Shown: one piece after another, positions 13,401 through 54,500 of the stretch | Position numbering within the stretch: position 1 is the stretch's first letter | Layout: every line of letters starts with the position of its first letter | NCBI GenBank assembly: GCA_964036195.1 | Contig: OZ038457.1 | Coordinates: 24,686,787 to 24,750,786 of the forward strand | DNA from: Sphaerolaimus hirsutus | Taxonomy: Eukaryota; Nematoda; Chromadorea; Monhysterida; Sphaerolaimidae | DNA: 64,000 bases | Reading direction: 5' to 3' | Position numbers and translations under genes: made by a program | Notes under the pieces: model-generated | Told to the model about the DNA's origin: nothing | Seen by the model: only the letters and a program-made list of their open reading frames with translations | Database searches by the model: none

Positions 13401-16400
13401 CACGGGCACCGGTAACGCCCCCTGGCCCGCTATCAACGGCTGCAGGAATGTCGGCCCGCCGGGGCCCTACGCAGTTTATTATTGATCTATTGTAGGGCTG
13501 GTTGTAGGGTCACAATAAAAAATGAGTAGAAAACCGACGTAAGAAACAGCCGCGATGGCCCGTTTCCGCTGCCCGCTGCCCTGTTCGCGGCCGGTGCGGC
13601 AGGCGGACCTCTTGCTCCCAGCCACGCTTCTATAATCCGCGCGGCGCATTTAACTCGTGCTCGTTTTTTATCGACCTTCATTTTCAACCCGGGTCGACTC
13701 ACCTAGTCGACGTGGTCGAGTGCCTGGAGTCGACGGCGGTGTCGTCGCTGTCGGGCAGCTCGATCAGCGGCACGCCGCAGTACGCCCACAGCATGGCCGC
13801 CTCAGACTCGGCGCCCTGGGAATGGTCTTGTGTTTTGGTGCTTATTTGCGTTGGAGGGGTCGAGTTATCAGGTGGTTAATTCACGAGAGAATCGTAAGTG
13901 GTGGGTAGATAAGTACAGTTAGTACAAAGACTTGTATTTAAGTGACAAATTTGTAGACAAAAATATCAATCCACTTCATAAATACTTCATGTGTAAGATA
14001 ATATACCACCCACAGCAGTTCTTACCTCGTATAATCCCCGGACCGCATTTTTCTGAATGAAACACTCCATCGTCATCGCTAAGTAAATGAAAAAAATTTC
14101 AAAAAAGAAATATTATTTCAGGCATGAAGCATACATTGTTTCTACTCGACTTCGCCTTTTTCTTTTTGAAATATTTTTTTTTGTTTAAGTATCCAGCTGT
14201 TCAAGTATCCAGCTCTAGTGATGGAATGACGCCATGGCGCTGGCGCCATTTGAGGGCGCCATGGCGCCATTGGCGCTTGGCGCCCTTTTTCTGTGGCGCC
14301 CTTGGCTCCTGGCGAGTCTGCACCGCTCGGCATCTCACCCTGCATGGCATCTGGACCCGCGTGGCATCTATCGTCCTAGTGGCTACATGCCGGCACATGC
14401 CATTCGGTCTCCATGCCGGCACATGCCATTCGGTCTCCATGCCGTGTGGGTGTAGATGCCAAGCGGGCTGACCCCCCCCCCACACACACACCCACGAGAC
14501 GGCCCACGGTTTACTTGCACAGCAGAAATATTACTAGCTGAACCTGTCACCCTGCAACTTATTTTTATAGGAGTACATTTGCAATTGCACAATTAACAAT
14601 TGCATTTTGGGACACCATGCATGTAAAAAGCCTCAGTGTTAAGGGGCAACACTCAAATTGATCTGGGTAGTGTGGTGAGATATGCATTGAATATTGTGTA
14701 CATGGTGGCTTGGAAATAGATGGTCAAATTAGATATTTTTAACAGATTTTCTGGGATCATATTTAATTTAATTTTCTCAAAATCAGCCAATTTGAAATGT
14801 GAAATAAAATATTGATCAATATATTTGATGTTGTGTTCATCCAAATACTGTGTTTGATTGAAATTTAGCCATATGCACTAAACTAGGAAACTAGGAATCC
14901 ACTTATGTAGGCCACCCTGTAAATGAGTTTAAATTCCATGTGAACACTGCTGGAACTCAATGTTGAAATCCACTTGAACAGGGTGGCCCAAAACACATGG
15001 AAGTTTACAAAGCTGTTTCCTAAAATGATCAATCAATTTGAGTGTTGCCCCTTAACACTGATGCTTTTTACATGCATGGTGTCCCAAAATGCAATTCCCA
15101 CAAAAAAATGGCTTGATAAAAATTTATTCTAATAGCCACTCTTACAGGGTTACTAAAGAATTGTATTTATGAATTTACATGGGCATGCATGTATCTACCC
15201 TTCTTCCCCATTTCAAACGGTACTCATATTTGCATTCAAATAATAAAATTCAGAGACACTTGACATCTGAAAATAAAAATTGGGAAAAACATTGAAATTT
15301 TCCACATTTTGAATTCATATTTTTTGTGCACATGCTACACTGGACATGTAGACCCCCCCTGCCCGCTTGGCATCTGGCCCTACCCGCCCGTTTGGCATGT
15401 ATGCCACAGTCCGCTTGGCATCCAGCATTGGATAGATGCCAAGCAGGTCTAGATGCCAAGCAGGCAGAAATCCATGATATCCGGGTCCAGATGCCAAGCG
15501 GATTAAATGCCATTTAGGCCTGACCCCTCCTGGCGCCCACATTCTGAAATGCGCCTTGGCGCCCTTGGCGCTTGGCGCCCTTTTTCTGTGGCGCGCTTGG
15601 CGCCTGGCGCCCTTTTTTCTGGCGCTTTTCCATCACTATCCAGCTCACGCGTTATATGTAGACTAAGACATAAGTAATTTTGGGCGCATATTTTGCGGTC
15701 CGGTGAGTATACCATTCTTATTGTCACTTGACCACTAGGGGAAATCGTCATTTGCAACTCGCGTTCACCATGCGCTGAAATCGACAGCAAAAGCAGAAGC
15801 CAAAGCTCACCGCAGCGCTGTGCATCATGTGCCTCTGATGGTCGAGCAGCGCGGCGGCTGTTGCCGCCGGCGCCGCCTGCTTATTATGCTGGTGCGTGGC
15901 GGCGGCAGCTGCAGCCAGCACGATGCTCTGGGGCAGTCCCGCACCCTGTCAAGTGCCCTGGGCAATATCGAATGTCATGCATTTCGGTTGCAACTCGGTT
16001 GCCATTTTGCAGGGCATTTTACATGTCTTTTGACTAGTGATGTGAAAGCGCCATGGCGCTGGCGCCTGGCGCTAGCGCCAAAGCAAAAAGCGCCATGGCG
16101 CTTTTGGCGCTTGGCGCTAAAATGCTGTGGCGCCATTGGCGCTTGGCGCCGTGTTTCCGAAAAGCGCCATGGCGCTTTTGGCGCTTGGCGCTACTTTCCA
16201 GTGGCGCCATTGGCGCTTGGTGCTACCATTTTTTAAAGCGCCAAAAAAGCGCCAGAGAATGATAATTGCGCCGCGGTGTTCATGTGCCTTATTGCCTATT
16301 TTCAGCAATTTTTGGCCTTGTATGTGATTATTTTACATAGATATTTTACTCAGATACTGATTTTCCTTGAAATCCCCCCACTCGAAATACCCCCCCCCCC

Positions 16401-19400
16401 TCAAAATGGACACTATGAAATAATTACCCACCCCCTAGAAATACCCCCCCCAAATTGAGTGTACAGAGAACATACATGACAAAACTTCAGTTTGTGATTC
16501 GGGCAATGCAAAACACACGTTTCAAACAATGAATTGTTACGTTCGAACAGTGTTACACACTTAAATAAGTCAATAGACTCTTATACCTAAATATATAGCG
16601 GTTATTGTTGTATTTTTCTACGTCTGCGTACGACAATTTAGTACTGGAATTTCAAAAAAAATTTCTGGCGAAATAATAAGCCTCCCTCGAAATACCCCCC
16701 CTCGTTTAACCCCCCTCAAAATTCTCACTCTGAAACAATCACCCCCGGGGGAATATTTCGAGGAAATACAGTATGTAATTTAGCTATTTTTACCCTGTTA
16801 TCTCACAGTTTGCACTTTAAATCTTGAAATATCCAATAGATTGAAACGCTGCAACCCCCAACCCCCAGACAATCTTCCAGCTTCTACCACGTCAGAGAGG
16901 CAATTTGCTATTTATCTATTTGAACCAGTCTTAGTTACACTTGTGTGTTGAGCAAGAAAATTGATTTCCATTATTTGACCATTTTTGTCTTTTTGGAGGC
17001 AATACAAGTTATTGAAAGTTAAGAAAATAGTACTTTGTCTCACCTGTATCATTAAAGGCAGTATCATTTTGGCGCTGGCGCCATTGGCGCTTGGCGCCAT
17101 GGCCCCCTGGCGCCTTTGGCGCTTGGCGCTAATGCCCAGAAAAGCGCCATGGCGCTTTTGGCGCTTGGCGCCATTTTGCTGTGGCGCCATTGGCGCTTGG
17201 CGCTAGTTCCGGAAAAGCGCCATGGCGCTTTTGGCGCTTGGCGCCAAAAGTCTGGCGCTTTTTACATCACTACTTTTGACACTTTGCATGACATTTTACA
17301 TGACTTTTGACACTTTTCATGACACTTGACATTCCCCAGGGCATGTGACAGGGTCCGGAATTGGCACCTGGTGGATGTTGCTGGCGACGGGCAGGACGGC
17401 CTGCTTGCCGGAGGCGGAGCGCATGGTGTCGCGCACGTGCCGCATGAAACTGCGGTCGGGCGGGCGCGCCCACATCACCTCGGGCGAGGCCGTGTCGATT
17501 TCCATGCCTGCTCAATAACTTTGTAGCAGGGACGTAGCCAGGATTTTTGAGCGGGGGGGGGCGAATTGTATACGGAGCCAGGCGAACGGGGGGGGACGGC
17601 GCCCCCCCCCTCAAATTTTACCCCTGTAGTAGAGGAATGGCGCCATGGCGCTGGCGCCATTCGTAGGCGCCACGCCATGGCGCCACTGGCGTTGGCATTG
17701 GCGCCAAAGCAGCAGTATACGTCTGTATTTTACAGGCATATTGTGCGACATGGATTGTAATTGAGTCCATTTTCACTGGCTTTGAGGCCGCAGAGAACGG
17801 TCAGCCAAAATATATGTTGTGAAGTGAACATGCGCGCTTGCGCGCAAATTTTTTTCAAACTGTCGACAAAATCGTTCTCTGAAAGTGCCATTTTTGGCAC
17901 ATTTTTTGGTCCGGCCCGGGAAGGGGGGGGGGCGGCCGCCCCCCCCCCCGCCCCCCCCTGGCTACGTCCTTGCTTTGTAGTGATGTAGATTTTTGGATAA
18001 TTACAGGGAAACACAGCTCTTCGAGAACTGGCTTCCAACTAGCTGATAATTGTTTGTTTACACTTGGCAACGAGTTGTCAGTGTGAGCAGCGAGTAGTGC
18101 CAAAAAGTGACTGGATTTTGTATCTGAAGTGCTTGAATTATGCACAAAAATTGCTCGGATTCTGCCTGATTGGGTTATGCACACTTGATATTCAGCTTTC
18201 CCTGTATCATTCCCCCATTGAAGTACCTAAGTTGAAGTGAGGAGCCAACAAATCTTTTTAGAACTCTCCCAAATTGAGAGTGAAACAGATTACAAACATT
18301 ACAAAATGGTGGAGTTTAAGTAGTTGAGTCCTAGTTATAGTTGTCTGCAAAAATTCTGCAGAAATTTTTTTCCGTAATCAACCCCCCCCCTCAAATAATT
18401 CCTCTTATATTAAAAAAAAAACGTTTTACCTACCCTGTGCCTTTTGCAGCGCCGTTTCGGCGGCCTCGCGCGTCTGGAAGTGCACGAATGCGAAATCCTT
18501 GATCTTCTTGATGCGTTCCACGGTGCCGGGTGCGAAACTGTCGAACAAGTGCCACAGGGTCTCTTCCGTGGTGCTCAACATCAAGTTCCGCAGGTAGAGT
18601 ATGCGCACCTGCGATTTAGGTTTATAGATGTTAGATGTATCGTATTTGCTTGAATAACCCCCCCCCCCCCTTGAATGATTCCTCCTGTTAGACGAGTGAG
18701 GAAATAATAAATCTCGCTCTTGAATAATCAATTTTGATAATTATTTCTAGAAATTAAGTAATTTTGGACGCTTTAAATTCCAATCTGCTGACTATAACTA
18801 TTTACCTATTTTGGCCGCGTGAACGATTTTTTTTGTAAATAGCGGACCCTGTCATTCACAAACCAACCTGCTTCATAGTATCCTCATCGACATCCAGCTC
18901 AGGCTCGGCCCAATCGACGCAAATCGCCTGTCCGAACAAAGTTAGCCTATCGCGCGTCAACTTTTGCCTGGCCAGGGGGCACTCACAGACCCTGTAAAAT
19001 GCCCTGTGAAATGTAAAATGTCATGCAAAGTGACTAAAGTTATGTAAAATGTAAAATGTCATACAAAGTGTCAAAAGTCATGTGAAATACCCTCAAAGAT
19101 AGAAAACGTCATGTAAAATGCCCTGGAAAAAGCAAACTTACTCCTGTCATTATGAAGCGCATTTTCCATGACTTTTGTCTCTTTGCATGACATTTGACAT
19201 TATTCATGACTTTAGACACTTTGCGTGACACTTGACATTTTACAGGGCATTTCACAGTGTCCGCGAGTGGCACCAGCGCCGCAGCCCTGTGACTGGGCAG
19301 CTCTATGAACGCGAAGCCCCTGTTCTTGGACTTGTCGTGCGCCGACGGGTACATGATCACGTCGACCAGGGGGAAGTCCCAGACCCTGTAAAATGCCCTG

Positions 19401-22246
19401 TAAAATGTCAAATGTCACGCAAAGTGTCAAAAGTCATGTAAAATGCCCGGTAAAATGGCAAACGTACGTTTGCCATTTTACCGGGCATTTTCCATGACTT
19501 TAGACACTTTGCATGACATTAGACATTCTACCGGGCATTTTACAGAGTCTGGGACTGGCACCAGGTCGGGCAGGGCGGCGCGCAGCTCTAGCAGCACGTC
19601 TGAGCGGTTCTTGTCGCGCGGCAGGCCGCCCACGAACAGCCGCCGGTTGTCCACGCTGATGGTGGCGCCGATACGCTGGCCGCGCACGCACTCGTTGTGC
19701 AGCTGCTGCACGGCCGCCTGCGTTGGGGTGGGCTGGTGATGATAGATTGTGCATGTGACATATGGGGGTTGTGACACACCGGGCTGGCGTTAGGTGATGG
19801 TGGTATGCAAAGTATGCGTCCAAATTATTAGTTATGTCTTAGTCAGGGTTGGCAAAATCTCAGAAAAAAATAAAAATAAAATTCAAAATAAAATAGAAAA
19901 TTAAAGAATAAAATAAAAATAAAATGTAAAATTGAAGAATAAAATAAAAATAAAATACAATTTTAATAAAAATAAAATACAATTTTAGTAAAAAGAATTT
20001 TACTTAAATCAATCCTGGTCACGAACTAAAACAAAATATAAAAATAAAATACAATTTTAGTAAAAAGAATTTTACTTAAATCAATCCTGGTCACGAACTA
20101 AAAAAAAAATAAAAATAAAATAAAAATAAAATGAAAAATTGAAGAATAAAATAAAAATAAAATGAAAAATTGAAGAATAAAATAAAAATAAAATGGAAAA
20201 TTGAAGAATAAAATAAAAATCAAATACAATTTTAGTAAAAAGAATTTTACTAAAACCAACCCTGTTCTTAGTTGATAACGTGCGATCAGGATACTTATTT
20301 TTATAAAGTAAAAGGCATGGCATGGTAAAAGGATAATTTCTTCATGAAACGTTTTTGGAACGGTTGTTTTAAATTCATTATACCGTAATGATGGAGAGTT
20401 TACTTTCTTCTTCTTCAGAATTTGGCTCTATATCGACTCATCGAATTGCACTTGTTAAACTATCTCATCGTTAAATTTTTCAAAAAATCGAAATTGAGAC
20501 TAGGTAATTCCCAACAACACTGTGCACCCAAGCAGCCACCTTAGCAGTGTATTTGTCGGCGTACACGACGAAGGCGTAGCCGCGGTTCCTGCCGCCCGGC
20601 TCGGTCATGACGCGCATCTCGTACACGCTGCCCACGCGCCGCACCAGCTGCCACACTTCCGCGTCGCTCGTGTCGCGCATCAGCTTGGCTGAGTGCCAGG
20701 GGCAGTAACGATGGCATAAAAAATTCGAAAATTCGAAAATGCAGGTATTGATGCAACAAAATTCGAAAAGTAACAAAAAAAATCGAAATATCGAAAAGTG
20801 ATTTTAAAAAATCGAAAATTCGAAAACTATTTTCGGAAAAATGTCGAAAATTTGAAAAGTCGTTTTGGAAAAAAATATTTAAAAAACTTAAATACTTTTT
20901 TTCCAAAGGGTTTGCCATCGTTAAGGGGCAGTGATTGGGGGTGTGGAGAAGGGGCACTGTTTGACCCGACTCGACTGCTGGGTCGGGTCGGGTTTGAGTG
21001 TCGGGTTTTCCATTTGGTCGGGCTTGAGTGTCGGGGACACAGGATCGATAACGCAAATTATAAGTTAAGAGAACAATAATAATAAAAATATATATAAGCG
21101 TCATGTAAATCCATTAGTGATCAGATCATAGCGATTCGTTATTAATTCACTTTCACTTATCACTTTCTCTTGTCTACCTGTAAAGTTTTAAAATTTTCAA
21201 CTGCTGTGCCCTGCAATTGTGATGCCGAAATACGTGCGATGCACCTACAAACATTTGCAGGGCCTTATCAAGGGGGGCGGGGGGGGGGGGTATTTTGAGG
21301 AAATACGGTAAATCACCTGGGTGTATTCAGAGAAAATCCAGTAATAGATACAAAAATTTACCTTCCAAAATTTACGATAAATCGGGCTGCCCGAAAACTC
21401 GTACCGGTTCAATCAAACCTCGGCTTTTCCTTACCTATGAAAATTTCGCATCCTTTGCCTGGAACGTCTCCTTCCCAGTCAGCTGGAGGGCCGTATTTTC
21501 TGTTGAGATTTTGTTATACTTTCACTACTTTTACTAACGCTATGTGCACACTAGTTTACTGCCAGTATACTCAAAATTAAGTAAACTAAAATCAATATAT
21601 TTTGAATGGCATTTGAGTTGACTGGAATCGGGTGTTCATCAACAATAACTTTGAGTTGACGGAGTGTAAATAGGGTTCAAACGGGATTGACTTTTCGGGA
21701 TCGGGATCGGGATTGGTTTTTTGGGATTTCGGGATCGGGATCGGGATTGGCCGGGATTGGGGTCACGGGATCGGGATCGGGATTGGCATTTTTTCGGGAT
21801 CGGGATTGGGGTCTTGGGATAGAGATTTTGGCCAATGTTTTGGCATCCACAGATGTTCATAAAGGTCTAAAAACACTGTTGGATGCCAGAAACGTGGCAT
21901 AAAATGAACGCTGGGGGTTTGCGTTCACATTTTTGCATGCAAAAACGTCGTTTTTTCACGTTTGATAATTACCACTAATTTTTCCGGGATCGGGATCCCG
22001 GACTTTGGAGTTTCTCGGGATCGGGATCGGAATTTGAAAAGTTTCGGGATCGGGATCGGGACTGCTAAATCCCGGAATTTCACGGGATCCGGGATCGGGA
22101 TCGGGATCCCGTTTGAACCCTAAGTGTAAAATAACTCATTCCAGTCAACTCAGCTACATTCAAGTCTGAAGGACATACCTCTGACCGCTTTCTATCGCGA
22201 GACTCTTCAAAAAACTATCGCTAATTGACTCTGGGTTATTTTCCAT
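10416..22246 (-). CDS. A1CF/RBM47/RBM46-like protein with three RRMs
   Basis: It is an RNA-binding protein of the APOBEC1-complementation-factor group. Exons: 22246-22179, 21499-21435, 20688-20540, 19717-19562, 19366-19274, 18972-18868, 18608-18434, 17507-17368, 15927-15811, 13815-13703, then probable 13466-13365 and 10595-10416. Phases agree through exon 10. The exon 10-11 link does not (phase 2 to 0), so a microexon or another donor is needed. Start [12 protein letters not shown] is followed by [10 protein letters not shown], the family hallmark. RRM1 has IFIAKL and NRGYAFVVY (79-87), RRM2 RLFVGGL and NRGFAFIEL (161-169), RRM3 ILYLRNL and KDFAFVHF (249-256). [20 protein letters not shown] and [11 protein letters not shown] match A1CF closely. 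The C-terminal exons are Ala/Pro/Gln-rich. Exon 10 (YCGVPLIEL) faintly recalls the family's dsRBD. Introns 4, 5 and 8 are introner-like. The last two exons are the least sure. Confidence 0.88.
10616..11975. mobile_element. 1.36-kb foldback element with 8-bp target duplication
   Basis: The whole unit is one large inverted repeat. The left end CATAGGGGATTTTCTGGG is mirrored by CCCAGAAAATCCCCTATG on the right, and the arms stay complementary to a centre near 11290. Direct repeats ATTGAGAT flank it at 10608-10615 and 11976-11983, so this is a clean insertion with an 8-bp duplication, as hAT-type transposases make. It lies in the last intron of the A1CF-like gene, 20 bp upstream of the predicted final exon. 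No transposase is seen. Confidence 0.9.
11990..12493. mobile_element. hAT-like MITE, CAGAGTTGTTAA family, with 8-bp duplication
   Basis: Terminal repeats CAGAGTTGTTAAAAG and TTAACAACTATG are flanked by ATGTGAAG at 11982-11989 and 12494-12501. The interior is AT-rich with repeated GTAAATGTA/GAGTAAA motifs. TIRs of the form CAGAG and an 8-bp duplication fit the hAT superfamily. Confidence 0.85.
12813..13302. mobile_element. hAT-like MITE, CAGAGTTGTTAA family, with 8-bp duplication
   Basis: Terminal repeats CACAGTTGTTAAAA and TAACAACTCTG are flanked by CTTCTAAC at 12805-12812 and 13303-13310. It is the second copy of this family in the same A1CF-like intron, with the same GAGTAAA/TTTACAT interior. 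Confidence 0.85.
13816..15810. repeat. Repeat-filled intron 9 of the A1CF-like gene
   Basis: It contains GGCGC palindromic blocks at about 14225-14320 and 15535-15640. Between them are inverted 'GGCATCTAGACC/GATGCCAAGCGG' motifs at about 14330-14480 and 15345-15520 that embrace the foldback element 14597-15096. These look like halves of one element split by a later insertion. No exon is seen. Confidence 0.55.
14597..15096. mobile_element. 0.5-kb foldback element
   Basis: The left arm has GCATTTTGGGACACCATGC, then CCTCAGTGTTAAGGGGCAAC. The right arm carries the reverse complement: GTTGCCCCTTAACACTGATG and then GCATGGTGTCCCAAAATGC. The arms are at least 60 bp. It is nested in older repeats of intron 9 of the A1CF-like gene. 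Confidence 0.8.
16040..16255. repeat. GGCGC palindromic repeat block
   Basis: It is a dense array of TTGGCGCTTGGCGC and GCGCCATGGCGC motifs on both strands. An inverted partner is at 17065-17268; the two enclose 16260-17060. Other copies are at about 14225-14320, 15535-15640, 17635-17710 and 56340-56490. It is non-coding. Confidence 0.7.
16360..16780. repeat. Element of the CCGTATTTCCTCGAAATAC family
   Basis: Blocks of CGAAATACCCCCCCC and CCCTCAAAATGGACACTATG lead to the right end GGAATATTTCGAGGAAATACAGTA. It is nested between the two GGCGC arms inside A1CF-like intron 8. Confidence 0.6.
17065..17268. repeat. GGCGC palindromic repeat block, second arm
   Basis: It is the inverted partner of 16040-16255, with TTGGCGCTTGGCGCC and AAAAGCGCCATGGCGC motifs. 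It lies in A1CF-like intron 8. Confidence 0.7.
17525..17990. repeat. Inverted-repeat element with GGACGTAGCC ends
   Basis: The left end GGGACGTAGCCAGGATTTTTG is followed by a G tract and the right end is CCCCCTGGCTACGTCC. Inside are TGGCGCCATGGCGCTGGCGC and GCGCGCTTGCGCGC, as in 3905-4325. It fills most of A1CF-like intron 7 (17508-18433). Confidence 0.65.
18973..19273 (-). mobile_element. Introner-like intron 5 of the A1CF-like gene (301 bp)
   Basis: In transcript sense the upstream exon ends GCG-CTG and the intron begins GTGCCACTCGCGGACAC. It ends CAGGGTCTGTGAGTGCCCCCTG, and the next exon starts GCC-AGG. The ends are inverted repeats and CTG is present on both sides. Exact removal gives SHRAAAL-ARQKL, which aligns without a gap to the A1CF sequence SHRAAAMARRKL. 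The intron therefore seems to end in TG, unless the AG nine bases upstream is used, which adds three codons in frame. Confidence 0.8.
19367..19561 (-). mobile_element. Introner-like hairpin intron 4 of the A1CF-like gene (195 bp)
   Basis: The intron runs from GTGCCAGTCCCAGACTCTG to CAGGGTCTGGGACTTCCCCCTG and is an almost perfect inverted repeat around GGCAAACGTACGTTTGCC. CTG flanks both sides. Exact removal gives [13 protein letters not shown], collinear with A1CF VVDVIVYPSA. The internal GAG seen in sister copies is mutated to GAC here. The nearest upstream AG would add 19 bases and break the frame. Confidence 0.85.
19845..20278. repeat. AAAATAAAATAAA element with CAGGGTTGG ends
   Basis: The left end CAGGGTTGGCAAAATCTCAG and the right end ACTAAAACCAACCCTG are partly inverted. 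The interior is a run of AAATAAAATAAAAAT with TTTTAGTAAAAAGAATTTTA repeated four times. Relatives lie at 26820-27855 and 36075-36220. It is in A1CF-like intron 3. Confidence 0.65.
20715..20935. repeat. AACGATGGCA inverted-repeat element
   Basis: The left end GTAACGATGGCATAAAAAATTCG and the right end GGGTTTGCCATCGTTAA enclose repeated TCGAAAATTCGAAAA. A related copy is at about 51540-51760 inside GPCR intron 4. It is in A1CF-like intron 2, next to a GGGTCGGGTCGGG stretch at about 20970-21040. Confidence 0.6.
21660..22128. repeat. GGGATCGGGATCGG repeat element
   Basis: It begins AGGGTTCAAACGGGATTGAC and ends GGATCCCGTTTGAACCCTAA, so the ends are inverted. Between are many CGGGATCGGGAT units and a unique core (GGATGCCAGAAACGTGGCAT). 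A second copy with the same core is at 49436-49890. It is inserted in a GTCAACT-type element within A1CF-like intron 1. Confidence 0.75.
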
Positions 22247-29522: not shown

Positions 29523-32500
29523 ATGGATTATTCGCGGTCATTCACAATCATGAACGATGCCGTCAACGTGCTGGTGCAGTGCGACGACGGGTTCTACAGT
29601 GAAGGTAAATTGGCAAAACGTCCTGGGCCGAGATACAATTTGCAGTGCCATTTTTTTGCCGGGCAGCCCGACTCATTGTAAACACCTTCCCGGTCACGTC
29701 CGGCAGCCATTTTTTGATTTTACTTCTTATATCCTATCCCCAGTTCTAGAGCGCCCCCGAGGCTGAAACTTGGGGGAGATATTGTCGCAACCCCCCTCTA
29801 CTTCGCAAGAATTTTGGGGGTCGCGGCGACCCCTCTCAGGGTGGGTCGCCCTAAGTGCAAAATTATTTTTGGCTTTTTTGGTGTCCCATGGTAGGTCCGG
29901 CACCCGCTGATTTCTGAGCTGTGGGAGGGGTATGAGTCTAAAATTTTGGGGATGTGTTACCAACACCACTCCCCTACTATACACTATTCAAAAAATGTGA
30001 GATTTATGTGAAAAATTTCTCAAAAATTCGCTTATTCTCTAAAAAACACCACTCCCCAATAGATGGATGACAAAAAATTCACTTTCTGGAACTTTTTTAT
30101 TAGACACTCGAAGAGCTGGTTTACAATACTTAAAAGGGAATGGTTTGATGTTTAAAGTTATGTAAAGAACCATACCTCTAAAATGCCTGCATTGCAAAAT
30201 TTACTTGGGGGGAATTTCAAAGTGTAAATTTTGTAAATTTTTGTTCCTGCGATGATGTCATTATGATGTCATAAAATTCACCCTCAGTAAATTTTGCAAT
30301 ACAGGCATTTTAGAGGTATGGTTCTTTACATAACTTTAAACATTAAACCGTTCCCTTTAAAGTATTGTAAACCAGCTCTTCAAGTGTCCAATAAAAAAGT
30401 TCCAAAAAGTGAATTTTTTGTCATCCATCTATTGGGGAGTGGTGTTTTTTTAGAGAATAAGCGAATTTTTGAGAAATTTTTCACATTAATCTCACATTAT
30501 TGAATAGTGTATAGTAGGGGAATGGTGTTAATAACACATCCTTAAAATTTAAGATTTATACCCCTCCCACAGCTAGCATTCGAAAAATAACCCGTGATTT
30601 ATATTTTCGAAAATCACAATAAATATAAATAACCCGTGATTTATATATATTTATATTTTTTCCAAATTCTGAGTGATATATTTATATATATTTCTTAAAT
30701 TTGAAAAAAATCACTGAGAAAATCACTCATACTTGATACATTGTGGTGCAATGCTTGTGCTTCTTGGTAATTATTATGACGAATGGTGACATCACCATCA
30801 ATTAGTTTTCATTTTGTATGTGACATATCATTTTTGAAAACTGACAATGCTTTGTGACTTGCACCAATGTCAGCTGTTTTCAAATACCGTATTTCCTTGA
30901 AATACCCCCCGGGGGTGATTGTTTCATAGTGGTCTCGAGAGGGGGGGGGTCAAACGAGGGGGGGGGGGTATTTCGAGGAAATATGGTATGGGGAAAACTG
31001 TTACCATGGTGTCACCAGTGCCACTACCATATTTCTCCAATCAAAGCACCCCTGGTGCTTTACAAAATTGGAGCACTTTTCAAACTACTTTTCAAGTTCC
31101 GTTTATAACACCCTGGTGCAATGCAAATCACCGGGTGCTATACTATGTTTTGTTTGACAGCAATAGGTACTCAACTAATGATACTGACGGATCAACTTTT
31201 ATATGATTTAAGGTTGAATGCTTTTTCAATAATGCCACGACCCACAAATCTTTGAACACACGCACCATTCAAGTTTCCCTGGTGAAGTACACCAGAAGTG
31301 TTTGATTTCGCCGCAGCACGCAAATGAAAGCCGTGCACCATGCTAAATATGCATTTCGATAGGCATAATCTGTGCGAAAAGAACGCTGCATGAGCAACAG
31401 ATGGCTTTCCTTGCTGCAATATTATTTACGTTTACAGATGACCACCAAAATTTTTTTGGATGAGAAGTAAAGCACCCAGGTGCTTTACACGGAACATATT
31501 GCACAGCATAGCACCCCAGGAGCTTTGAACAGGGGGGGGGTGCTTTGATCGGAGAAATACAGTAGTGTCATCACAATGTTGCCAAGATGTAGCCATGTGC
31601 CAAAAAATGAGTTTTCACAGCACATCACCATTGAAAAAGTGCTGAGCATGAGCGCCTATTTAGTCAAACGTCCATTGCCACAACCAGGCACTATAGGTTG
31701 AGTGCTAAATGTTTGCAGTGCAAAATATTTTTGAAGTTTTCATTGAGGTTGAACTGAAGGTTGAATTTTTCTGTGATATTTGCTTGAGGTTTTCACTTGT
31801 AAAATATTGTATAAATGAATACTGATTGTGGAATGGTAATATATGGACTGTGGTATATTAGAGTAAATTTTTTGTGCTTGCAAATGGTAAATAAAGCCCA
31901 GAATATTGCTTGAAATTGAAATAAAGCGCAAGTGATTTTTTGAGATTTTTTTCGAGCTTAGAGTTATTTTTTTCAGTAATTTAATTATATTTTCTGGAGA
32001 CCTAGAGTGATTTATATATATTTATATTTTTTCCAATATTGGAGTGATATATTTATATATATTTTCCAAAAAATCGGTGATTTTTTCGAATGCTACCCAC
32101 AGCTCAGAAATCAGCGGGTGCCGGACCTACCATGGGACACCAAAAAAAGCCAAAAATAATTTTGCACTTAGGGCGACCCACCCAGAGAGGGGTCGCCGCG
32201 ACCCCCCCAATTCATGCGAAGTAGAGGGGGGTTGCGACAATATATCCCCCAAGTTTCAGCCTCGGGGGCGCCCTAGAACTGGGGATAGGATATAAGAAGT
32301 AAAATCACAAAATGGCTGCCGGACGTGACAGGGAAGGTGTTTATTTATAAAAGATTGCATGGTGTCGATTCTATCAGGTATTACTCCGAAACCCTGTAAA
32401 ATGTCTTGTAAAATTTCATGCAAAGCGTCAAAAGTCATGTAAAATGTCATGTAAAAGTTCAAACGACCGGTAAGTATTTAAGTATGAGCTATGAGCTGTA

Positions 32501-35500
32501 TGAGCATGAGTATGAGCTATTTTACATGACTTTTAACAATTTGCATGAAATTTTACATGGCATTTTACAGGGTCTGGGATTGAAACCTGATTTTGGTCGC
32601 CAATAACGATCAACTTATACAATTGAATTTCATGCACCCGGACTGTAGTGCACTGCCCCCTCTCAAATCAGTGAAAAATAAATTGCCCAAAAATTACCCA
32701 TTTTTGGAGCGCTTCTCGCAACCCGCAGCCGTACTGTTAGCCGACGCCAAGGGTGGAGATTTCGACGAGAATGTGAACGCGCGCCGCTGCTGCATTCACC
32801 TGGACGGGCTGGGCGGCAAGGCCATTCCCATGGAGGTCGACTACGCCAGACTCGTCTTTCCGAGCAGCGACGCTATGACTTCCCTGGTCGCCGTCGGTTT
32901 TGTTCATTCTAAATTTTGTCGCAAAATTCTGAAACAGCCACCCGGGTATAGCTACTTGGCGGGCCGAAATTTATGTGCAGAATTCTACCATAATTAAATG
33001 AATAGAATATAAATTTCGTAATTAATTATTCCATAGTAAAAACGAAATACCGTATTTCCTCGAAATACCCCCCTTAAAATACCTCCACTCGAAATAACCT
33101 CCCACAAAATGGACAATATGAAATAACAACCCCCCTCGAAAGGGGCAGGCCTGATACGCACATATGCCCGTTTTTTTTCACTTGACACTTTTTCAAGTTA
33201 TTTTCAGATATGAGTAAAGTGAAAAAAAGTTGCGCAATGACATGAGTGAACTTTTTTCACTTCACTCATATCTGAAAATCACTTGAAAATGTGTCAAGTG
33301 AAAAAAAAACAGTGAAAAATAGCCATTTTTCACTGTTTTTCATTTGACACATTTTCAAGTGATTTTCAGATATGAGTGAAGTGAAAAAGTTTACTAATGT
33401 CATTGCGCAACTTTTTTTCACTTTACTCATATCTGAAAATCACTTGAAAAAGTGTCAAACGAAAAAAACGGGCATATGTGCGTATCGGGCACGTGTGCGT
33501 ATCAGTGCACGCCCCCCTCGAAATACCCCCCCAATTTAGTGTAAAAAGAACGTATTCATTCATTCATTTCATGTAAAGATAATCATGCAGTATTCAGTAG
33601 AACTGTCTATTTTATCATTATTGCGTCGCAGCCGGGCGACTATTGCATGACGATGTGCGACCAGACGTTGCGCAACTGCGCGCCCGCTGTGGTCGCGTCC
33701 ATCCACACCGACCCCCGACTCGGCAGAGGCTACTTTTTACACATACTCGGCTGTCGCACGGCGGTGAATTTATTTTGAAAGTTTAAAATTTTTTTTAAAG
33801 TTTCTTTAAATTCTAATTTTAAACGAAACCTAGAAAATTTCGCAGGAATGGCGCGCGGCCGACCAGTGCCACATGATCACGCGCAACCAATTCAGACAGC
33901 TCTCCGACAACATCAACGACGGCATCAAATCCACGTACAGGTGCCGCTCCCAGACCCTGTAAAATGCCCTGGAAAATGTATAATGTCATGCAAAGTGACT
34001 AAAGTCATGTAAAATGAAAATGTCATGCAAAGTTTCAAAAGGCATTTAAAATGCCGTGTAAAATGTAAAGTGTCACGCAAAGCGTCAAAAGTCATGTAAA
34101 ATGTGATGCAAAGTGGCAAATGTCATGTAAAATGTGATGCAAAGTGTCAAAAGTCATGTACAATGTTATGCAAAGTGGCAAAAGTCATGTAAAATGTGAT
34201 GCACAGTGTCAAAAGTCATGTAAAATGTGATGCAAAGTGTGTCATGTAAAATGTTATGCAAAGTGTCAAAAGTCATGTAAAATGTCATGTGAGAGGTGAC
34301 AAATGTAATGCAAAGTGTCAAAAGTTCGTTTCCCATTTTCCAGGCCATTTCCCATGACTTTTACACTTTGCATGACATTTTACATTTTCCATGGCATTTT
34401 ACAGGGTCTGTGAGTGCCGCCAGGTGCCGCGTGCTCGCTTATCACATGAAGGCGGCCTGTTTCAAACCGGCCCACGTGCTCGGCCTGGCGGATGAGAGCC
34501 GCAGCAATGCCGCTTCTATGTGTAATTTTAATGTGTGGTGGCCCGATGGCACTCAGTCGACTATAAGGTGCGTTTTTGAGAGGTTTCTTTTTGGAATTTG
34601 TTGTATGAGGAGTGTTGTATGTGACACCCTGTGTATGTGAAGCGAGCATCTGAGGATGTAGAATTGCCAAGAATTGATGTAAAGCAATCTGGGGTCTATG
34701 TTTTGACCAGCCGAGTGAAAACCGAGCTATGTCATTGTAAAAGTACAGCTGTCAATATCTTTACAATGTCTACCCACAGCTCTTCTAACGATAAGTTGTG
34801 CAAATTTTTCAGACCAAACGCTCCATGTAACATCACACAGGGCATTTATTTGTTGGATTACGGTAATCACCATGAGACACTACATAAATACATGCATGCC
34901 CACCCAGCCGAGCAATGTTCTTCACGAACAGCGAGCAGCGGCTGGCGTCGGACGTGTGCAGGGGCGACGCCGTGCTGGCGCCCTGGCCCGACTCGAAGCC
35001 GCTGTGCTATTTCGTGTCGCGCGTGTACGACGCCGCCCAGGGCCAGCTCACTGTTATTTTGGATGGCAATGTGCAGTCGGTTCGACTTGACTATTAAAAA
35101 ATCATTGAATTAAGATACCTAATTAGGAATTGAGTATTAAACTTGAATTTTGAATAAAAACTTGAAAACGTGAAAATAATGCATTTTTCGGCAACTTTTA
35201 TTTGTCGTATGACTTTTTAAATATTTGTCATTACGCTGTAACTCCACATTAATAGCAAAACACTCACGCGCTCGTTCATCTATTTACCTACCGTATTTCC
35301 TCGAAATACCTCCCTCAAAATGGACACTATGAAATAATAATAACGTTACACATAAACAACGTATTACTACTGGGAGTTAAACAAATTCTGGCGAAATATT
35401 AACCCCCCTCGAAATACTCCCGCCCCTCCAAATACCCCCCGGCCCTCGTTTAACCCCCTCAAGATTTCCACTCTGAAGAACTAAACCCCCCGGGGGATAA

Positions 35501-37230: not shown

Positions 37231-37239
37231 TAGACCCAT

Positions 37240-39156: not shown

Positions 39157-39358
39157 CTGGTGGCAATCCCAAGCCCTGTAAAGTGTAAAGTAAAGTGTCA
39201 AATGTAAAGTCAAATGCAAAGTAAACTGTCAATTGTCATGCAAAGTTCAGTAATAAAATCTTTTCTTTTTTTGTTTTGATTGACACTTTACTTTGCATTT
39301 GACTTTACATTTGACACTTTACTTTACACTTTACAGGGCTTGGGACTGCCCCCAGTTG
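39157..39358 (+). mobile_element. Introner-like hairpin element outside any recognised gene
   Basis: It runs from CTGGTGGCAATCCCAAGCCCTG to CAGGGCTTGGGACTGCCCCCAG. The inverted arms (AAAGTGTCAAATGTAAAGTC and its complement) are close to perfect. It has the same asymmetric ends as the intronic copies. No exon is visible on either side. Confidence 0.7.
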
Positions 39359-45734: not shown

Positions 45735-46057
45735 AAACAGCATACCGTATTAACGGAAAATTTTCTCCCCCCCCCCTTGAAATGCCCCCACCCGAAATGG
45801 GTGTAAAGAGAATGAAATAGCCAAAAACTGCAGAATGCACATTAAAAACTGTGGCTGAGTTACCTTAAGACAGGGCTTATAACATCTACATATCCATATC
45901 TGGATACTTACCTACCGTACTTCCTCGAAATACCCCGTTCGAAATACCCCCTCAAAATGGCCACTATGAATTTATAATGCCCCTCGTCTAACCCCCTCAA
46001 ATATCTCACTCTGAAAACTTAAACCCCTTGGTGTATTTCGAGGAAATACGGTATATA
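45735..46057. repeat. CCGTATTTCC-type MITE pair
   Basis: ACCGTACTTCCTCGAAATACC at 45915 and GGTGTATTTCGAGGAAATACGGTA ending 46054 bracket one short copy. A fragment (TACCGTATTAACGG) lies at 45743. Confidence 0.65.
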
Positions 46058-46797
46058 AGTCTATGGACGCTTAAAATCTCGGTTATTGTTGCATTTTTCT
46101 ACTTCTGCGTATGTTACGCAATTTTTGTTTGGATTATGCTACAAAAGTGTCAGAATTATACCTGTTATATGGTTATGCATGCTTGGATTCATGTTTTCCC
46201 CCTCACAAGATTACCCCTCACATGATTTTCGGATTACAGCCCCAATTCTAATTGTCTGCCCCACAACACGGCACTGCAAAGAAAACAAATTGCCGGCGGC
46301 GCATGTGTTACCACTGCACACTACTAGTTTACGACCGAAATTTTGGAAACTGATAAAAACTAAAAAACGCAATTGAGTTATCCGAATTAAAGAGTCAGTC
46401 AACTGCTGTTGACGTAAACGATTCATTCTTGTCAACTCAAATCTGTTCAACGCAAATTTATCAGTTTCCGAAAATTCTATAGTAAACTGGTGTGCGGAGC
46501 TTCATTTGTACAGCTCCCGTGTGCGGATCAGCCGCAACACGCACTAAACGGGTTGCTAAAAAATGCGCCTGCCGCGGCGGCAGGGCGACAATGAATCAAA
46601 AGAGAGTAAACTGGCGCGGCGGCGCGGCCGCGACAAGGGAGTAGTGCAAAATGCACATTTCCGGCCGGCCGCACATAAATATTAGTTGGTGCTTAGTGCC
46701 GCCAGTGGTGGATATCACGCGCCAAGTGAGCACGCGCCGCATGCAATCAGATAGGGAAATGTACGCCGCCGCGCCGCACTGCAATCCCGCATGGATA

Positions 46798-47205
46798 TAC
46801 CGTATTTACTAGAATAATCCCCCCGCTTGAATAATCCCCCCACTTGAATAATTCCCCAATCTTAGACGAGTGAGGGGAAAAAATTCCCCCTCTCCAATGC
46901 ACAAATCATATCTTTAAAAAAACAATCGACAAAGAAAAAGTGGTTTCTGGTTTGATTCATCGAATGCAGATGGAGCACGTCAGATGGAGCACATGCACTG
47001 TTCACATGGAATCTTCACTACCAACGGAGACAGGACAAAAATATTTACATGTGTATGTAGTGTGATAGATAAATACATGCTTGAAACATTTGAAAAAATT
47101 ATAATTCCCCACTTGAATAATCCCCCCTAGTTTCCCCTCTCTGATGAAACTCTGACGAAAAAAAATTTACCCCGGGGGTATTATTCGAGTAAATACGATA
47201 CATAC
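46798..47205. repeat. CCGTATTTACTAGAATAATCC-type MITE
   Basis: ACCGTATTTACTAGAATAATC on the left and GGTATTATTCGAGTAAATACG on the right. This is the 'GAATAATCCCC' subfamily, also at 18640-18730, 53100-53205 and 60604-60925. Non-coding. Confidence 0.75.
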
Positions 47206-47844
47206 AGAGCGGTTGTGTCGGTTATGTCCATGGAGCCGCGGAAATTACTCGCACGCTCCATCTATTTACGATATGGAATACAATAACCGATGTAATAATT
47301 ACTTTTCACAGGTGAAGCTGAAATCTCATTATGCGGATAGCCTGCAAAACTTGCACAAGGCATTGCATTTTATATGGATATAATTAGGTAAATATAAAGT
47401 TGTATAAACTTTTTTAGCAGCGTTAAGTTCACAGATGACTGATTTTCCAGTCGAAACACATGGACTTTGGTTAATTTATTACTTTTTCATGCCTTTTGTC
47501 TATCTCATATCATGCATAAATAAATATAACGTCTTTGTTCCCTAGTTCGCTCAAACATGCACTCGCTCCATGAGCATCAGACAGTAAAAACAGGTGTACA
47601 TTATATACGGTGGTTTATTTATGTTGGTAACAAAGCAAGTTATGCGGTTACCACGGTGGCACCTTTTTTGCTGCGTCAAACCTCTGACTGCGGCCATTTT
47701 GAGAATATTACTTGCGCCAGCTCTGATGTTTTAATAATAATAATAAAAAGTATTTTTCCAGTCTGAAGGACCGTCCCAACTCCTCGGCCTATCCAATGTC
47801 AGAAACACGTACAGTATCCAAATTTACGGCAGTTTTCGAGAGCC

Positions 47845-48546
47845 GCTAATCAAAATTGACCAGCGGCGAAATTCGCGTGCGGCGGGAAAATTTGTCGCGG
47901 CCGCGCGGCGACAAGAAACTTGCCACGGGCGGGAATTTCAAGCCCGGCTTAATGCATTCATGATTGAGCCCGGTGTGCGGATAAGCGGTCCAGCCGGCAC
48001 CTCGGCAACTGGCAGCCAAACAAAAAGCCATAAATTTTTTATCGCTCCCGTCGATCGCGGTGCTAAAAGGCGGGGCGGCCCAGCTCGAAGTACCCATAGA
48101 AATGCGCGGCAAGTAGCCCGCTAGCCGAGGCGACCGCCGCTGCCCCGGCTCCAATTGATACCGGGGGATGAGCGCTGGCCGCGCGGCCGACGCGAATGGA
48201 TACGGGCGGCCGCGGCGGCAAACGCGCGGCGTCGGAAGCGGGCCGCGGCTGCAGCTAGCTAGCCGGCTTCTAGCATCCGCGCGCGCGCATTAGCGGATTG
48301 GTGGCGATGGTAATGAATGGTGGGCGCGCCTCACGCAGCCACCGCGGCCGGCTACCTGGCACAGCCGAGCGGCGGCCATTGGGCGGATACCAACGCCCCA
48401 GCGGCCGGGCGCCCCTTGACGTCATAGCTGCGGCGGCGCCGGGTGCGAAAATGTGACCGCTAACGACCGATCGAGCCGGCTACCGGCCGCTGACTCATAG
48501 CCACGAGCAAACGCTCGAATACATTAGACGCGCGCACGCGGCTAGC
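47845..48546 (+). promoter_or_regulatory. GC-rich, CpG-dense region upstream of the GPCR start
   Basis: About 700 bp is strikingly rich in CG dinucleotides (GCGCGC, GGCCGCGGC, CGGCCG) and free of the window's repeats. It ends at the GPCR ATG. It is plausibly the promoter and 5' untranslated region. The minus-strand open frame across it reflects base composition. Confidence 0.5.
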
Positions 48547-51500
48547 ATGGACCCGGCCGGCGTGGGAGAGTACGGCGGTGTGGACGCGACGCCCTGGTCG
48601 AGCACGGGCAATGGGTCGGGCGTGGGAGACCACTACGACGTGGAGCCGTTCGCCGTGCCCGGCAACGACCTGCTCGCGTTGGACTCGCCCTGCGACGACG
48701 CTGACTTTGTGGAGCCGCACCACCACTGGCTGCTGTTGAGATTCGTTCTGGTCACGGTGTTGGGTTGGTGCTAAATATTTACGTATGCGATTTTGGGGTT
48801 TTGATAAAAACGACTTTACTACTGAAGTTTTATGCACAATGACTAAGCCATATTTGCAAAGTCTGCATAATGTCGCTTTTTATATTTGAGAGATAAACTT
48901 CGTAGGAGTTCGTAAGAATCATAATGATCAACATAAACTTCGTAAGAATCATAACGATCAATTTAATTACCGAATTTTAAGTTAAATGAAACTAAACTAG
49001 TGAGCATAATTATTAAAACGTATTCACATTTATCGAAAAATACCTACACTTGAGTACTGAGTAAATACGTTCACGTTTCCTCTGAAAAAATACTGGTACT
49101 CATCTTTATGCATACACTTAGAAAGTACGCGAGTACAGAAAACGTATTTCGAGCAGCATTTACAAGCACTCCCTTTAACTCAAAAATAAAACACCCTTTA
49201 TAGTAACATATAATACTTATCAAGGAAAAAACATCTTCGATGTTTTTCAGGGTAAAAAATTGAAAAATAATCACTTTTACAGTTACTGTGAGAAAAATAC
49301 TCGCTTTTAGTTTCCTGTGAGAAAAATTCTAGCTTTTACGGTTTCCCTGAACGCTTTAAAGTACCTAATTTACCTAGTCACCTTTTGAGCAGTGTAAATG
49401 TAAAAATTTAATTTACGTTTTCTGTTCTCAGCGCTAGGGTTCAAACGGGATTGACTTTTCGGGATCGGGATCGGGATTCACTTTTTGAGATTTCGGGATC
49501 GGGATCGGGATTGTGGTTTCGGGATCGGGATTGGTTTTTTGAGATTTCGGGATCGGGATTGGCCGGGATTGGGGTCAGGGGGTCGGGATCGGGATTGACA
49601 TTTTTTCGGGATCGGGATTGGGGTCAAGGGATAGAGATTTTGGCCAATTTTGTGGCATTCACAGTTGTTCATAAAGGTCTCAAAACACTGTTAGATGCCA
49701 GAAAAGTGGCATAAAATGGATGCTGGGGGTTTGTGTTCACATTTTTGCATGCAAAAACATCATTTTTTACTTATTATATTTCCCATTAATTTTTCCGGGA
49801 TCGGGATCCCGGACTTTGGAGTTTCTCGGGATCGGAATCGGGATTTGAAAATTTTTGGGATCGGGATCGGCAAAATCGGGGAGCGAAAATTGTGGCAAAA
49901 TTTCTCAAAAATACCCACTTTAAAGTTTCCTGTGGACAAAAGTAATTTACTCACGTTTACTCATCATGAGTAAAAGTAAAAAATAAATACTTTACGTTTT
50001 CTGTACTCACCTGTGAGTAGAAAATAAATATTTTACGTTCAAGTTTATTTTCGAAAAAGTTCAGTACTTTTAACAACTCTATTCAACATAACGATCCAAG
50101 TGGATACACCAGCACTGAATCCAGTTCTGCAAAATGAGAAGTGAAATGGCAAAGGCGAAGTAACAGCGCAAAAGCGAAATGAAATGGCAAAAGCGAAGTA
50201 ACAGCGCAAAAGCGAAATGAAATGGCAAAAGCGAAGTAAAAACAGAAGTAATTTCTATCCGCTTTTGCCATTTCACTTGCCAATTCACTCACCATTTCAC
50301 CTCGCCTTTGCGCTTTCACTTCGCATTTGCCATTTCACTTCCCACTTCTCATTTTGCGGAACTGGCCCCAGATGTGCCCACCACCCACCGCAGGCACTCT
50401 GCTGGCGCTGGTGGGCCTGTCCGAGAACGCGCTGCTGTGCTGGCTGCTGGCGTCGCGCGAACGCTTTCGCTGCTCGCCGCTGTTCTTCCTGGCCGGCGTG
50501 GCCGCCTTCGACTGCCTCTTGGACGGCTTCTATCTGGTGCCAATCCCAGACCCTGCGAAATGCTGTGTAAGGTGGAAAATGTCTTGCGAAGTGTCTAAAG
50601 TCATGGAAAATGTCCTGCAAAATGGCAAAAAGTTTTTTGCTATTCTGAGACAGTTTCGCAAGTGGAGAAGTAAGAAGTAAAATGGTAAAAGCTAAGAGAA
50701 ATTACTTTTTTTACTTCACTTTTGCCAATTTAATAGCCATTTCACTTCGCTTTTGCCATTTTACTTCCCACTCCTCCACTGCGGAACTGGCACCTGAAGT
50801 GCACGTGCCATGACTTTTGACACTTTGCATGACACTTGACACTTTACAGGGCATTTTCCAGGGTCTGGGAGTGCCCCCCGGTGTGCACGTCTGCGCTGAT
50901 AGCTGCCCGTGCGGCGCCGCACCCGGTCGCGGACGCGTGGGCCAACTTTGCAGCCCCGGCGCTGGCGGCCGGCCACGCGGCTAAAGTGGCCAGCACTTTC
51001 TGTTTGATCGCAGCGTCGGTGGAAAGGTCGCTTTTTCTATATATTGTTCAGTGCAATTTGCTTAGAAAATTGCGTCATTTTGAGAAAATATACCTTATAA
51101 AATCTCCCTGAAAATGATATACCTAATACCTATGTATTTTTCCATTTTTCTCCATAATAAAATCTGTCTGGAAAAACCTGGGAAGAAAATAAAAATAAAT
51201 GAGATAATTTTGTATTTTCTGATATTTAAAAATATAAATCTCCCGAATCTGAGTTGACACTGACAAGTTGACACGTGTGTCAACTAGTGTGCGGGCCACC
51301 GACGTGGAAACACGGCGCAGGTACAGAGCGGCGTGTCACTGGTCGTTCAGCGGGTACAGCACGCCGCACAGGTACCTCATTTTCGTTGCAGTCACTGCAA
51401 TGGCGGCGCTGATCAGGGGCTTGAGCCATTGGCAGCAATCACTCGTCATGGACCACTGCAGACTCTCAGGTGAATGATGACACACTCGCATGATTACATC

Positions 51501-54500
51501 CTCGTTTTTTATACCACCGTACGAAAAAAACCCCACTTAAAATTGATTGTTTTTTTGTTGAAAAATTCGAGATTTTGAAAATTCGGCAATTCGAAAAGTG
51601 TTAGAAGCTTGGAAGCCTGCAAAACATAAGGATTAATTTAAAATTAACACACAAAAAATCGAAAATGTATTTTCAGTCATTTTTGTCATTTTAGAGAGAA
51701 AAAAATCAAAAATTTTATCTTTTTTCCCAGATGGTTTGCCATCGTTAATCATCAAAAAACCTGTATATTTCGAACCATACCAAGCCACGCCCCCTCAGGC
51801 GATACGAGCGCGCCTGGCGGCAGCACGAAGGTCTACTGGGCGGTGGTCGCCCTGGTGCCACTCCCAGACCCTGTAAAAAGCCCTGTAAAATGTCAAATGT
51901 CACGCAAAGTGTCAAAAGTCATGTAAAATGCCCTGCAAAATGGCAACCGAGTTGCCATTTTGCAGGGCATTTTACATGACTTTTGACACTTTGCGTGACA
52001 TTTGACATTTTACAGGGCTTTTTACAGGGTCCGGTAGTGCCCCCTGGGCGTGGTGGTGCCGTTCGTGCTGCTCATCGTGATCAACCTGGGCATCGTGCTG
52101 CGGCTGCACTACCGCCGGGTGCAGGAGATGCGCTCGCTGGTGCTCAAACTGGCTGTGGGCGACGTGCGCATAGCGCAGCACACGGAGCGGGTCCGCCGCG
52201 CCGCCATGACGCTCGTGTGCATCGTGTGCGCCTTCCTGGTGGCCGCTCGCCGACGTTGTGAAGGGCTCTGGGAATGGAGAATGTCGTGTGGAGTGGGAAT
52301 AGTCGTGGAAAATGCACTGGAAAATGGCAAATGAACGTTTGCCATTCTCCGGCAGAGTTGTTAAAAGTACCAAACTTTTAACAAATTATATGTAAACGTA
52401 AAGTATTTTTTTAGTCACCCACTGAATACAGAAGACTTACCTAATGTATTTTTTTACTTTTACACATCATAACTCATGACTAAACAGTAGTAAACGACCT
52501 TTTCTCTGGAAAACGTAAAAGTGAATATTTTTTAAACATTTTGCCCCAATAATCAGTAATTTTAATTTTTTTGCACATTTTGACCTTGAAATTCACTAGT
52601 TCATATTCTTCCTTGACTATTTTCAGCTATTTTGTATACCTATATAAATATGAGTTAATATTTATACCCATTTTTTACTTTTTTCCTTATTTTTAGCTTT
52701 TTTCTCCCATCTAGGTAGACCTTGAAAATGCCTATATGTAGGCCCATCTGAAATACGTTTTCTGTACTCGAGTACTTCCCAAAGTTGGCCACTATGCATG
52801 ACATTTTCCATGCCCCAGCGCACTTGCCAGTGTCCTCGAGTGGCCAGGCGAGCAACGTGCTGAACGTGTGCCTGACCATGTGGGAGGGGCTGGACGCGGC
52901 GGACTTCCACAGCGCCGACAACCGCTGGCTGACGCTGTGCCTCGAGGACGCGGCCGCCATGTGCGCCGTCGCCGGCAACGTGTGCAGGCTGCCCATCTAC
53001 GCCGCCTGCGACTTGGAGATACGGTCGGCGCTTGGAATGGCCATTCGAAATTGGTAGCTGTTTGGGCACGCAGGGTAAACACAAAGGAGAAATAAATTAC
53101 TGTGTTCACTCGAATAATTCTACTAGGGAATTTTTTGTTTCGTCGAACGGCTAACAGGGGGAATTTAAGGGGTAGGAATTATTTATTCAAGCAAATACGG
53201 TACAAATAAATACATATTAGAAAAAATGTTTTGGAAATCTTCGTTCCTGTGGTATAATACCATTTACCTACTTGCCGCCTCCAAGCTGTATTTAACTAGA
53301 ATTGAATCGATCAGAAAAGCCGTGCACAACTTGCCTCTCATCAGTATAAAAAAATACATTCAAAATTTCTCACTATTTACCAATCGCAGCGCGGCGATCT
53401 TGGGAGCGTTGTACGAGATGGAACACTGGCTGAGATTAAGATTCGGCTTGTGCAATCGGTGCTGCTCGGAGGGCTGCGTGCCGCCGGTGCCCCTGCCCGA
53501 CATTCTCATCACCGAGGCGGCCGTCAAGCCAAAAATCATGAGAGGTCAGATTATAGGTGGCTTATTTTGACATATTTGGGCAGTTTTGATTATTTAGGCA
53601 GTTTCGGTGCAATTTTGGAGGGTGTATTTTGAAGCGAGTCGATTTTTTTTTGCAAAACTCAAAAGCGAGTAGATTTTTTGCAAAACTCACTGAGACCGGC
53701 GGGTTTAATCGTAGATATACAGTAGACATACAAAACATTAGTAGACATGACCCTCTTTGCAAAAGAAGTAAACGAAATACCGTATTTCCTTGAAATACCC
53801 CCGGGGGAAAATTACATCACAAGCAAATTTTGAGGGTGGGGGCGGGTATTACGAGAAGGGTCTATTTTTCACAAGAAATCTGATTAAATTCCAAAACAAC
53901 ACCAACCATGCAGAACGTGCATCGACCATCCGACGGGGCGAGACGTGCTCGAGTGCGGGCGGCGGCGGCGCAACTTCAGAGTGGAGCCGCGCCGACGACG
54001 ACACCAACAACAACGAGCGGCGCGACGGCGGCAACTGCCTGCTGGCGGCGGACGGGGGCGACGCGGCTGCAGCGCAGCGCAGACACACCGGCGGCCCGTT
54101 CCCGCTGGACCCCGACTGCACTTACAGCCGCCTGCAGAGGTTCTGCAACGCGTTACAGAGGCGAGTGAGGGTTGGATTTGAGGGTTATTTACCGTATTTC
54201 CTCGAAATACCCCCCAGGGAGTTTATTATTTCGCCGGCAAATTTTGAGGGGGTTAATTCGAGGGGGTTTATTATTTCGCAGGAAATTTTTTCGAAGAGAT
54301 CGTAGTGAAGAATAGGCTTTTACAAACACGAAACTGGTAAAGTAACAAATATCACCCAACGTAAATACCAACGTAGATAGCTAAACAAACTTACTCCTCC
54401 CCTTGAGTAACTCCCCAGAAATGAAATCTAACGAAAAATAACTCCCCTGAAGGCTTATTCGAGGATTATGGTATTTTATCAATACCGATATACCACAATA

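Follow-up and report, generated by a model that had tools for sequence, protein, structure and literature searches.

A probable introner-type MITE family with a 3′ splice-site problem in the nematode Sphaerolaimus hirsutus

Introduction

Can a transposable element that brings its own 5′ splice site become an intron where the duplicated target supplies no AG? The question arises from a 64,000-nucleotide stretch of the Sphaerolaimus hirsutus genome (contig OZ038457.1, positions 24,686,787 to 24,750,786; hereafter the window), in which seven intervals put forward as introns in an original prediction are copies of one palindromic miniature inverted-repeat transposable element (MITE) family. Introners are a leading explanation of mass intron gain, yet they are rarely reported in animals; within animals and land plants, introners with target-site duplications (TSDs) and terminal inverted repeats (TIRs) are reported from no more than two groups, each of them animal (PMC9860276). 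Judged from the genome sequence, introner-type intron gain has very probably taken place here, and what we describe is an introner-type MITE family with a 3′ splice-site problem. A literature search by titles and abstract openings, covering few subscription journals, found no description of this family.

A single element family

All seven intervals begin and end at the 19-bp termini of this one family, as the original prediction had it. The left terminus, GTGCCACTCCCAGACCCTG, reads GTGCCA, its GT being the donor, and the right terminus, CAGGGTCTGGGAGTGCCCC, reads GGGGCA; the two are inverted repeats save for the second and fourth outer bases. Copies are named here by their start positions (Table 1). 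When aligned to the 51855 copy, each of the other six scores higher than the best of 100 shuffles; the margin is smallest for the right part of 52239 (20 versus 15; its left part, 41 versus 14.5). A whole-genome TIR search extended the family far beyond the window: with up to 2 mismatches, the right end has 11,763 matches (5,895 + 5,868) in the 348-Mb genome and the reversed-pattern control has 0, so the family cannot be a product of chance. Folding of two copies, 51855 with its flanks and 19370, predicts long hairpins of −180.7 kcal/mol (z −21.6) and −158.2 kcal/mol (z −18.3), respectively.

Sampling began with 68 loci of contig C1 at which the right end matches exactly; 60 of them could be paired with a left end, some of the long pairs being doubtful. 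The same DNA was then searched again together with the window, this time for copies that have CAG or CTG on one side or both and whose two triplets differ by no more than one base. This gave 68 copies, 25 of them not chosen via an exact right end; after one merged window copy had been split and two window copies added, the set comprised the 71 copies used below. CAG or CTG (CWG) stands on both sides of 38 of the 60 paired copies, which is the duplication typical of the NuwaI transposons discussed below; 23 of these 38 are 150-200 bp long, and their flanks reveal a target preference for A, C, CWG, G, T/C. The left triplets of the 60 include 25 CAG and 20 CTG, the right triplets 27 CAG and 18 CTG, and exact genome counts give 605 CAG and 519 CTG before the left end and 462 CAG and 327 CTG after the right end. 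Around the seven window copies, where CAG or CTG bounds had been claimed for most, every flank is CWG except the CCG to the right of 50537.

Insertion into coding sequence

Under a codon model partly trained on the loci scored, 25 of the 71 copies have coding sequence on both sides in one frame, compared with 5.6% of 1,500 CWG sites drawn at random no less than 700 bp away and 13% of 69 ACCWGGT-like sites. Pfam domains run through 10 junctions once the element is removed exactly: RRM2 twice in a gene that, following the first reading of the window, we take to be A1CF-like; acid lipase; a thioredoxin domain, in a protein that is presumably PDI-like; CHGN twice in one gene; the primase large subunit; a COMM domain; and 7tm_1 twice, the 7tm_1 match falling below its gathering score. 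Solved structures add to this: RRM2 of the A1CF-like gene aligns to structure 2dis over 93 ungapped residues that span its two CTG copies (E 7e-32), CHGN matches as chondroitin sulfate synthase 2, and the primase and the lipase are likewise backed by structures. The A1CF-like gene also holds a further intact RRM-like exon. Support is weak for a transporter-like protein at L030; at L023 (KH) and L054 (PHR) the domain adjoins the junction without spanning it; and the “Tudor-like” label once attached to the gene at 33941 found no support in Pfam. Altogether, 29 copies were listed as coding, 12 with domain support and the others by score and appearance. A paralogue of the A1CF-like gene, L070, is contiguous through the 18976 site, i.e., without that intron; among five copies of the L051 gene examined for an empty site, no clear one was found.

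Removing an element plus one triplet does restore the reading frame, as had been reported, and this shows exonic insertion, not splicing. We therefore rejected frame restoration as proof of intron function, since any exact exonic insertion gives the same result.

Orientation gives indirect support for splicing. Thirty-six candidate junction proteins were listed per strand, and a Pfam match was found in 10 of 27 GT-first proteins (two of them from one gene) versus 0 of 29 distinct GG-first proteins; one GG-first protein was tested twice, in two lengths, and 7 candidates, 3 of them opposite strands of A1CF-like and GPCR (G protein-coupled receptor) copies, stood outside the GG-first test. Gene sense follows the GT end: the element is oriented with GT on the donor side. 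This bias counts against both DNA-level removal and passive disruption, which predict no bias. Elements might instead be cut from DNA in somatic cells, as ciliate internal eliminated sequences are, with a single CWG left behind. This would account for exact removal irrespective of the W base, but would not confine the Pfam matches to the GT-first strand, and an assembly, if made from mainly somatic tissue, should show empty sites; we regard such excision as very improbable. The original claim of a MITE family with a CWG duplication in exons of unrelated genes is thus borne out by the CWG flanks, the coding enrichment and the orientation bias.

The 3′ end of the CTG copies

Exact removal gives a GT...AG intron only where the right-hand triplet is CAG; CTG copies would be GT-TG. 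The proposal that the element's ends are the splice sites accordingly agrees with canonical splicing for copies with a right-hand CAG, while with CTG the intron is either GT-TG or needs another acceptor, and 4 of the 7 introns first listed would end in TG or CG instead of AG. The 29 coding copies comprise 12 CTG/CTG, 10 CAG/CAG, 5 CTG/CAG, 1 CTG/CCG and 1 CGG/CTG, so that a right-hand CAG is found in 15 and a CTG or CCG end in 14; the other 42 copies include 20 CAG/CAG and 9 CTG/CTG. Without the near-duplicates (L028/L029, L051/L053), 11 CTG/CTG and 8 CAG/CAG coding copies remain. These counts indicate that CTG is not depleted in coding sequence. CTG/CTG copies are no younger either: among coding copies shorter than 420 bp, median arm identity is 0.905 for 11 CTG/CTG and 0.897 for 8 CAG/CAG.

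The exonic copies, or the CTG class alone, might go unspliced and simply disrupt genes that are dying or alleles that are rare. Disruptive insertions, too, would show exact frame restoration, and the two arms of the 51855 copy are nearly identical. However, coding enrichment and orientation bias oppose this explanation, essential genes are hit (e.g., that of the primase large subunit), old diverged copies sit in intact frames, and arm identity gives the coding CTG/CTG copies no lesser age than their CAG/CAG counterparts. We consider it improbable.

A second alternative retains a canonical acceptor: CTG copies would use the GT donor together with an AG inside the right TIR (GGGAG/TGCCCCCTG, the slash marking the junction), adding 9 bases to the mRNA, or Cys-Pro-Leu in phase 0. 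We looked for this AG (GGGAG/TGCCCC) in six coding copies that have a CTG or CCG right triplet and were not selected via an exact right end. It is present in 18976, 50537 and 51855, where the frame stays open, and missing from 19370, L013_3082 and L023_510. Added residues have a precedent in Aureococcus introners, which add four (PMC9860276), and the right-hand CCG of 50537 keeps not even TG. Yet three extra residues would interrupt the ungapped RRM2, lowering its RRM_1 score from 27.2 to 21.6 bits, and would cost the GPCR match, although a fall in Pfam score is expected of any insertion and is thus weak evidence. With three of the six informative copies lacking this AG, its use as a general acceptor of CTG copies is disfavored; we rate the explanation as unlikely, if still worth serious attention.

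Other canonical solutions were sought copy by copy. At 51855, a length-neutral GT-AG option exists, changing VAL to CPL. At 19370, the best 8 of 32 in-frame options, judged against the general donor consensus, either use GC donors with poor consensus and replaced residues or are GT-AG and replace conserved residues with which the next RRM2 strand begins; among the options listed, we see no convincing canonical splice alternative for this copy. This one strong site, the class counts and the continuity of domains across junctions are our grounds for AG-independent joining of the CTG class, to which we give an even chance.

We therefore favor, as somewhat the better bet, a reading in which a non-autonomous transposon, probably of NuwaI type, has turned introner and its CTG copies are mostly joined at the duplication. 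The element would insert at ACCWGGT-like sites and duplicate CWG. A NuwaI-like left end would have changed from GGG to GTG, creating a 5′ splice site whenever the element lies in sense orientation, with the right end keeping GGG. The intron would consist of the element plus the right-hand CWG copy, so that its removal would restore the original coding sequence; a CAG on the right would yield a GT...AG intron and a CTG an intron ending in TG. We posit that the spliceosome still joins most CTG copies at that point, aided by the element's long RNA hairpin, which could bring the two ends together and bury internal AGs. A bolder and more tentative proposal, which we hold at rather less than even, is that the family gave this animal thousands of introns that are regular only at the 5′ end, the W base of each target deciding the 3′ end; about half of them would be GT-TG and would be joined exactly, with the hairpin presenting the ends to an otherwise ordinary spliceosome.

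Several observations weigh against the reading that we favor. The frame-shift controls separate only modestly from exact removal: on the GT-first strand at threshold 8, 21 of 71 copies score as coding after exact removal, 13 after a shift of one base and 10 after a shift of two. The coding list is partly a matter of judgement, comes mostly from one contig and contains the near-duplicate loci named above. Flanking triplets are identical in just 32 of the 60 first-paired copies. In paralogue L070, an intron border seen by eye lies ~8 nt upstream of the 19370 site, making an older intron nearby possible. Just six coding copies are informative on the internal AG, three of them having it, and both L013_3082 and L023_510 offer length-neutral canonical options in less conserved sequence. 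Finally, in humans a TG serves as acceptor only where it is an alternative to an AG close by (PMC2374985).

Origin and relation to known systems

NuwaI, a group of PHIS (PIF/Harbinger) elements, has a CWG TSD and TIRs of 12-61 bp that usually begin with GGG, and is found only in animals (PMC4482050). The present family shares the CWG TSD, a TIR length (19 bp) within that range and a right end beginning with GGG (GGGG), and differs in its left end, which begins with GTG. We conclude that it is probably a MITE family of NuwaI origin within the PIF/Harbinger superfamily; the family suggests both a likely parent group and the change, GGG to GTG, that would have created the donor. An autonomous partner would combine a DDE_Tnp_4 transposase and Myb/SANT open reading frames between GGGGCACTCCC ends. 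The genome contains 163 DDE_Tnp_4 matches; in the one 1.2-kb stretch inspected, the introns look by eye to be of GT-AG type, and the TIR is absent. Many of the DDE_Tnp_4 matches listed have near-equal scores over the same 633-bp span, which suggests a recent spread of that family.

Among the introners with TSDs and TIRs described by Gozashti et al. (2022, PMC9860276), the element can carry the donor and, in one family, the target duplication supplies the acceptor. Our family resembles them in being MITE-like, with a TSD, TIRs, an element-borne donor and, as proposed, an acceptor from the duplicated target; unlike them, it would owe a non-AG 3′ end to the TSD in about half of its coding copies, and splicing itself is here deduced from the genome. 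Amoebophrya introner elements have direct repeats, inverted repeats, hairpins and non-canonical ends (PMC7789003). Short direct repeats over the borders, inverted repeats, a predicted hairpin and non-canonical ends recur here, but the introners of that dinoflagellate parasite are without family-specific inverted repeats, whereas here a single TIR family keeps GT at the 5′ end. In the tunicate Fritillaria borealis, GT/AG borders are found in <10% of introns, and U2AF has been duplicated (PMC13326754); our family would likewise bring non-AG 3′ ends in bulk to an animal, but Fritillaria leaves both ends free, whereas here GT is kept and strong U2AF2 matches are confined to one gene-like cluster on contig C6, the others reaching at most 43 bits. 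On that ground we rejected a Fritillaria-like duplication of U2AF2; no search for U2AF1 was made. Human GT-TG introns would share with ours the use of TG as an acceptor of U2-type introns; there, TG is very rare and is confined to alternative use no more than 28 nt from an AG (PMC2374985).

Within a single genome, this element has inserted both with CAG and with CTG, and the one-base difference at the acceptor amounts to a natural experiment. If the CTG copies are joined exactly, the AG rule is bypassed in bulk, and the cause, be it the hairpin or an altered acceptor recognition, is directly testable.

Mismatched triplets show a bias of their own. Among the 68 copies of the second search, 11 are CTG..CAG and 1 is CAG..CTG (p 0.006), and in the genome counts CTG is rarer at right ends (327/789) than at left ends (519/1,124; p 0.044). 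Pairing from exact place lists on C1 gives 9 CAG..CAG, 7 CTG..CTG, 4 CTG..CAG and 1 CAG..CTG, this lone pair (L053) joining ends of two different copies. Selection for AG was rejected as the cause: the excess extends to copies without a coding appearance (L071 and L073 by eye; L012_3371, L055_3555 and window copy 39160 by low scores), and the pattern is the same from either strand. Hairpin-templated repair reaching into the flank is perhaps responsible.

Copies in the window

Table 1. Element copies and the exon between two of them, in window coordinates
Feature	Position	Strand	Flanking triplets and remarks
Element in A1CF-like gene, near its 3′ part	15931..17367	−	CAG/CAG (gene sense); diverged, enlarged; coding by score
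Element in A1CF-like gene, between RRM2 codons L and A	18976..19273	−	CTG/CTG; internal AG present
RRM2 exon of A1CF-like gene, between the two CTG/CTG copies	19274..19366	−	
Element in A1CF-like exon, between RRM2 codons L and V	19370..19561	−	CTG/CTG (gene sense; on the plus strand, CAG occupies 19367-19369 and 19562-19564); internal AG missing from right TIR
Paired copy	32378..32586	+	Left CAG, right CTG; not scoring as coding
Element in gene first labeled “Tudor-like” (no Pfam support)	33941..34420	+	CAG/CAG
Copy of related TIR subfamily (GTGGCAATCCCAAGCCCTG)	39160..39352	+	CTG/CAG; not scoring as coding
Element in GPCR-like gene	50537..50877	+	Left CTG, right CCG
Near-perfect palindromic element in GPCR-like gene	51855..52043	+	CTG/CTG
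Diverged copy in GPCR-like gene	52239..52844	+	Left CTG, right CAG

The related TIR subfamily, with ends GTGGCA(G/A)TCCCAAGCCCTG ... CAGGGCTTGGGA(C/T)TGCCCC or a near variant, is represented in the window by the 39160-39352 copy and elsewhere by L022 3011, L031 123 and L055 3555. Dense short repeats rich in GGCGCC/GGCGCT occupy 16045-17270, inside the 15931 element, and recur nearby at 17640-17720. Outside the window, the region C4:881755-982294 holds 10 exact right ends followed by CTG, all on one strand and ~7-15 kb apart, an arrangement that probably reflects tandem repetition of a gene or block with one copy in it.

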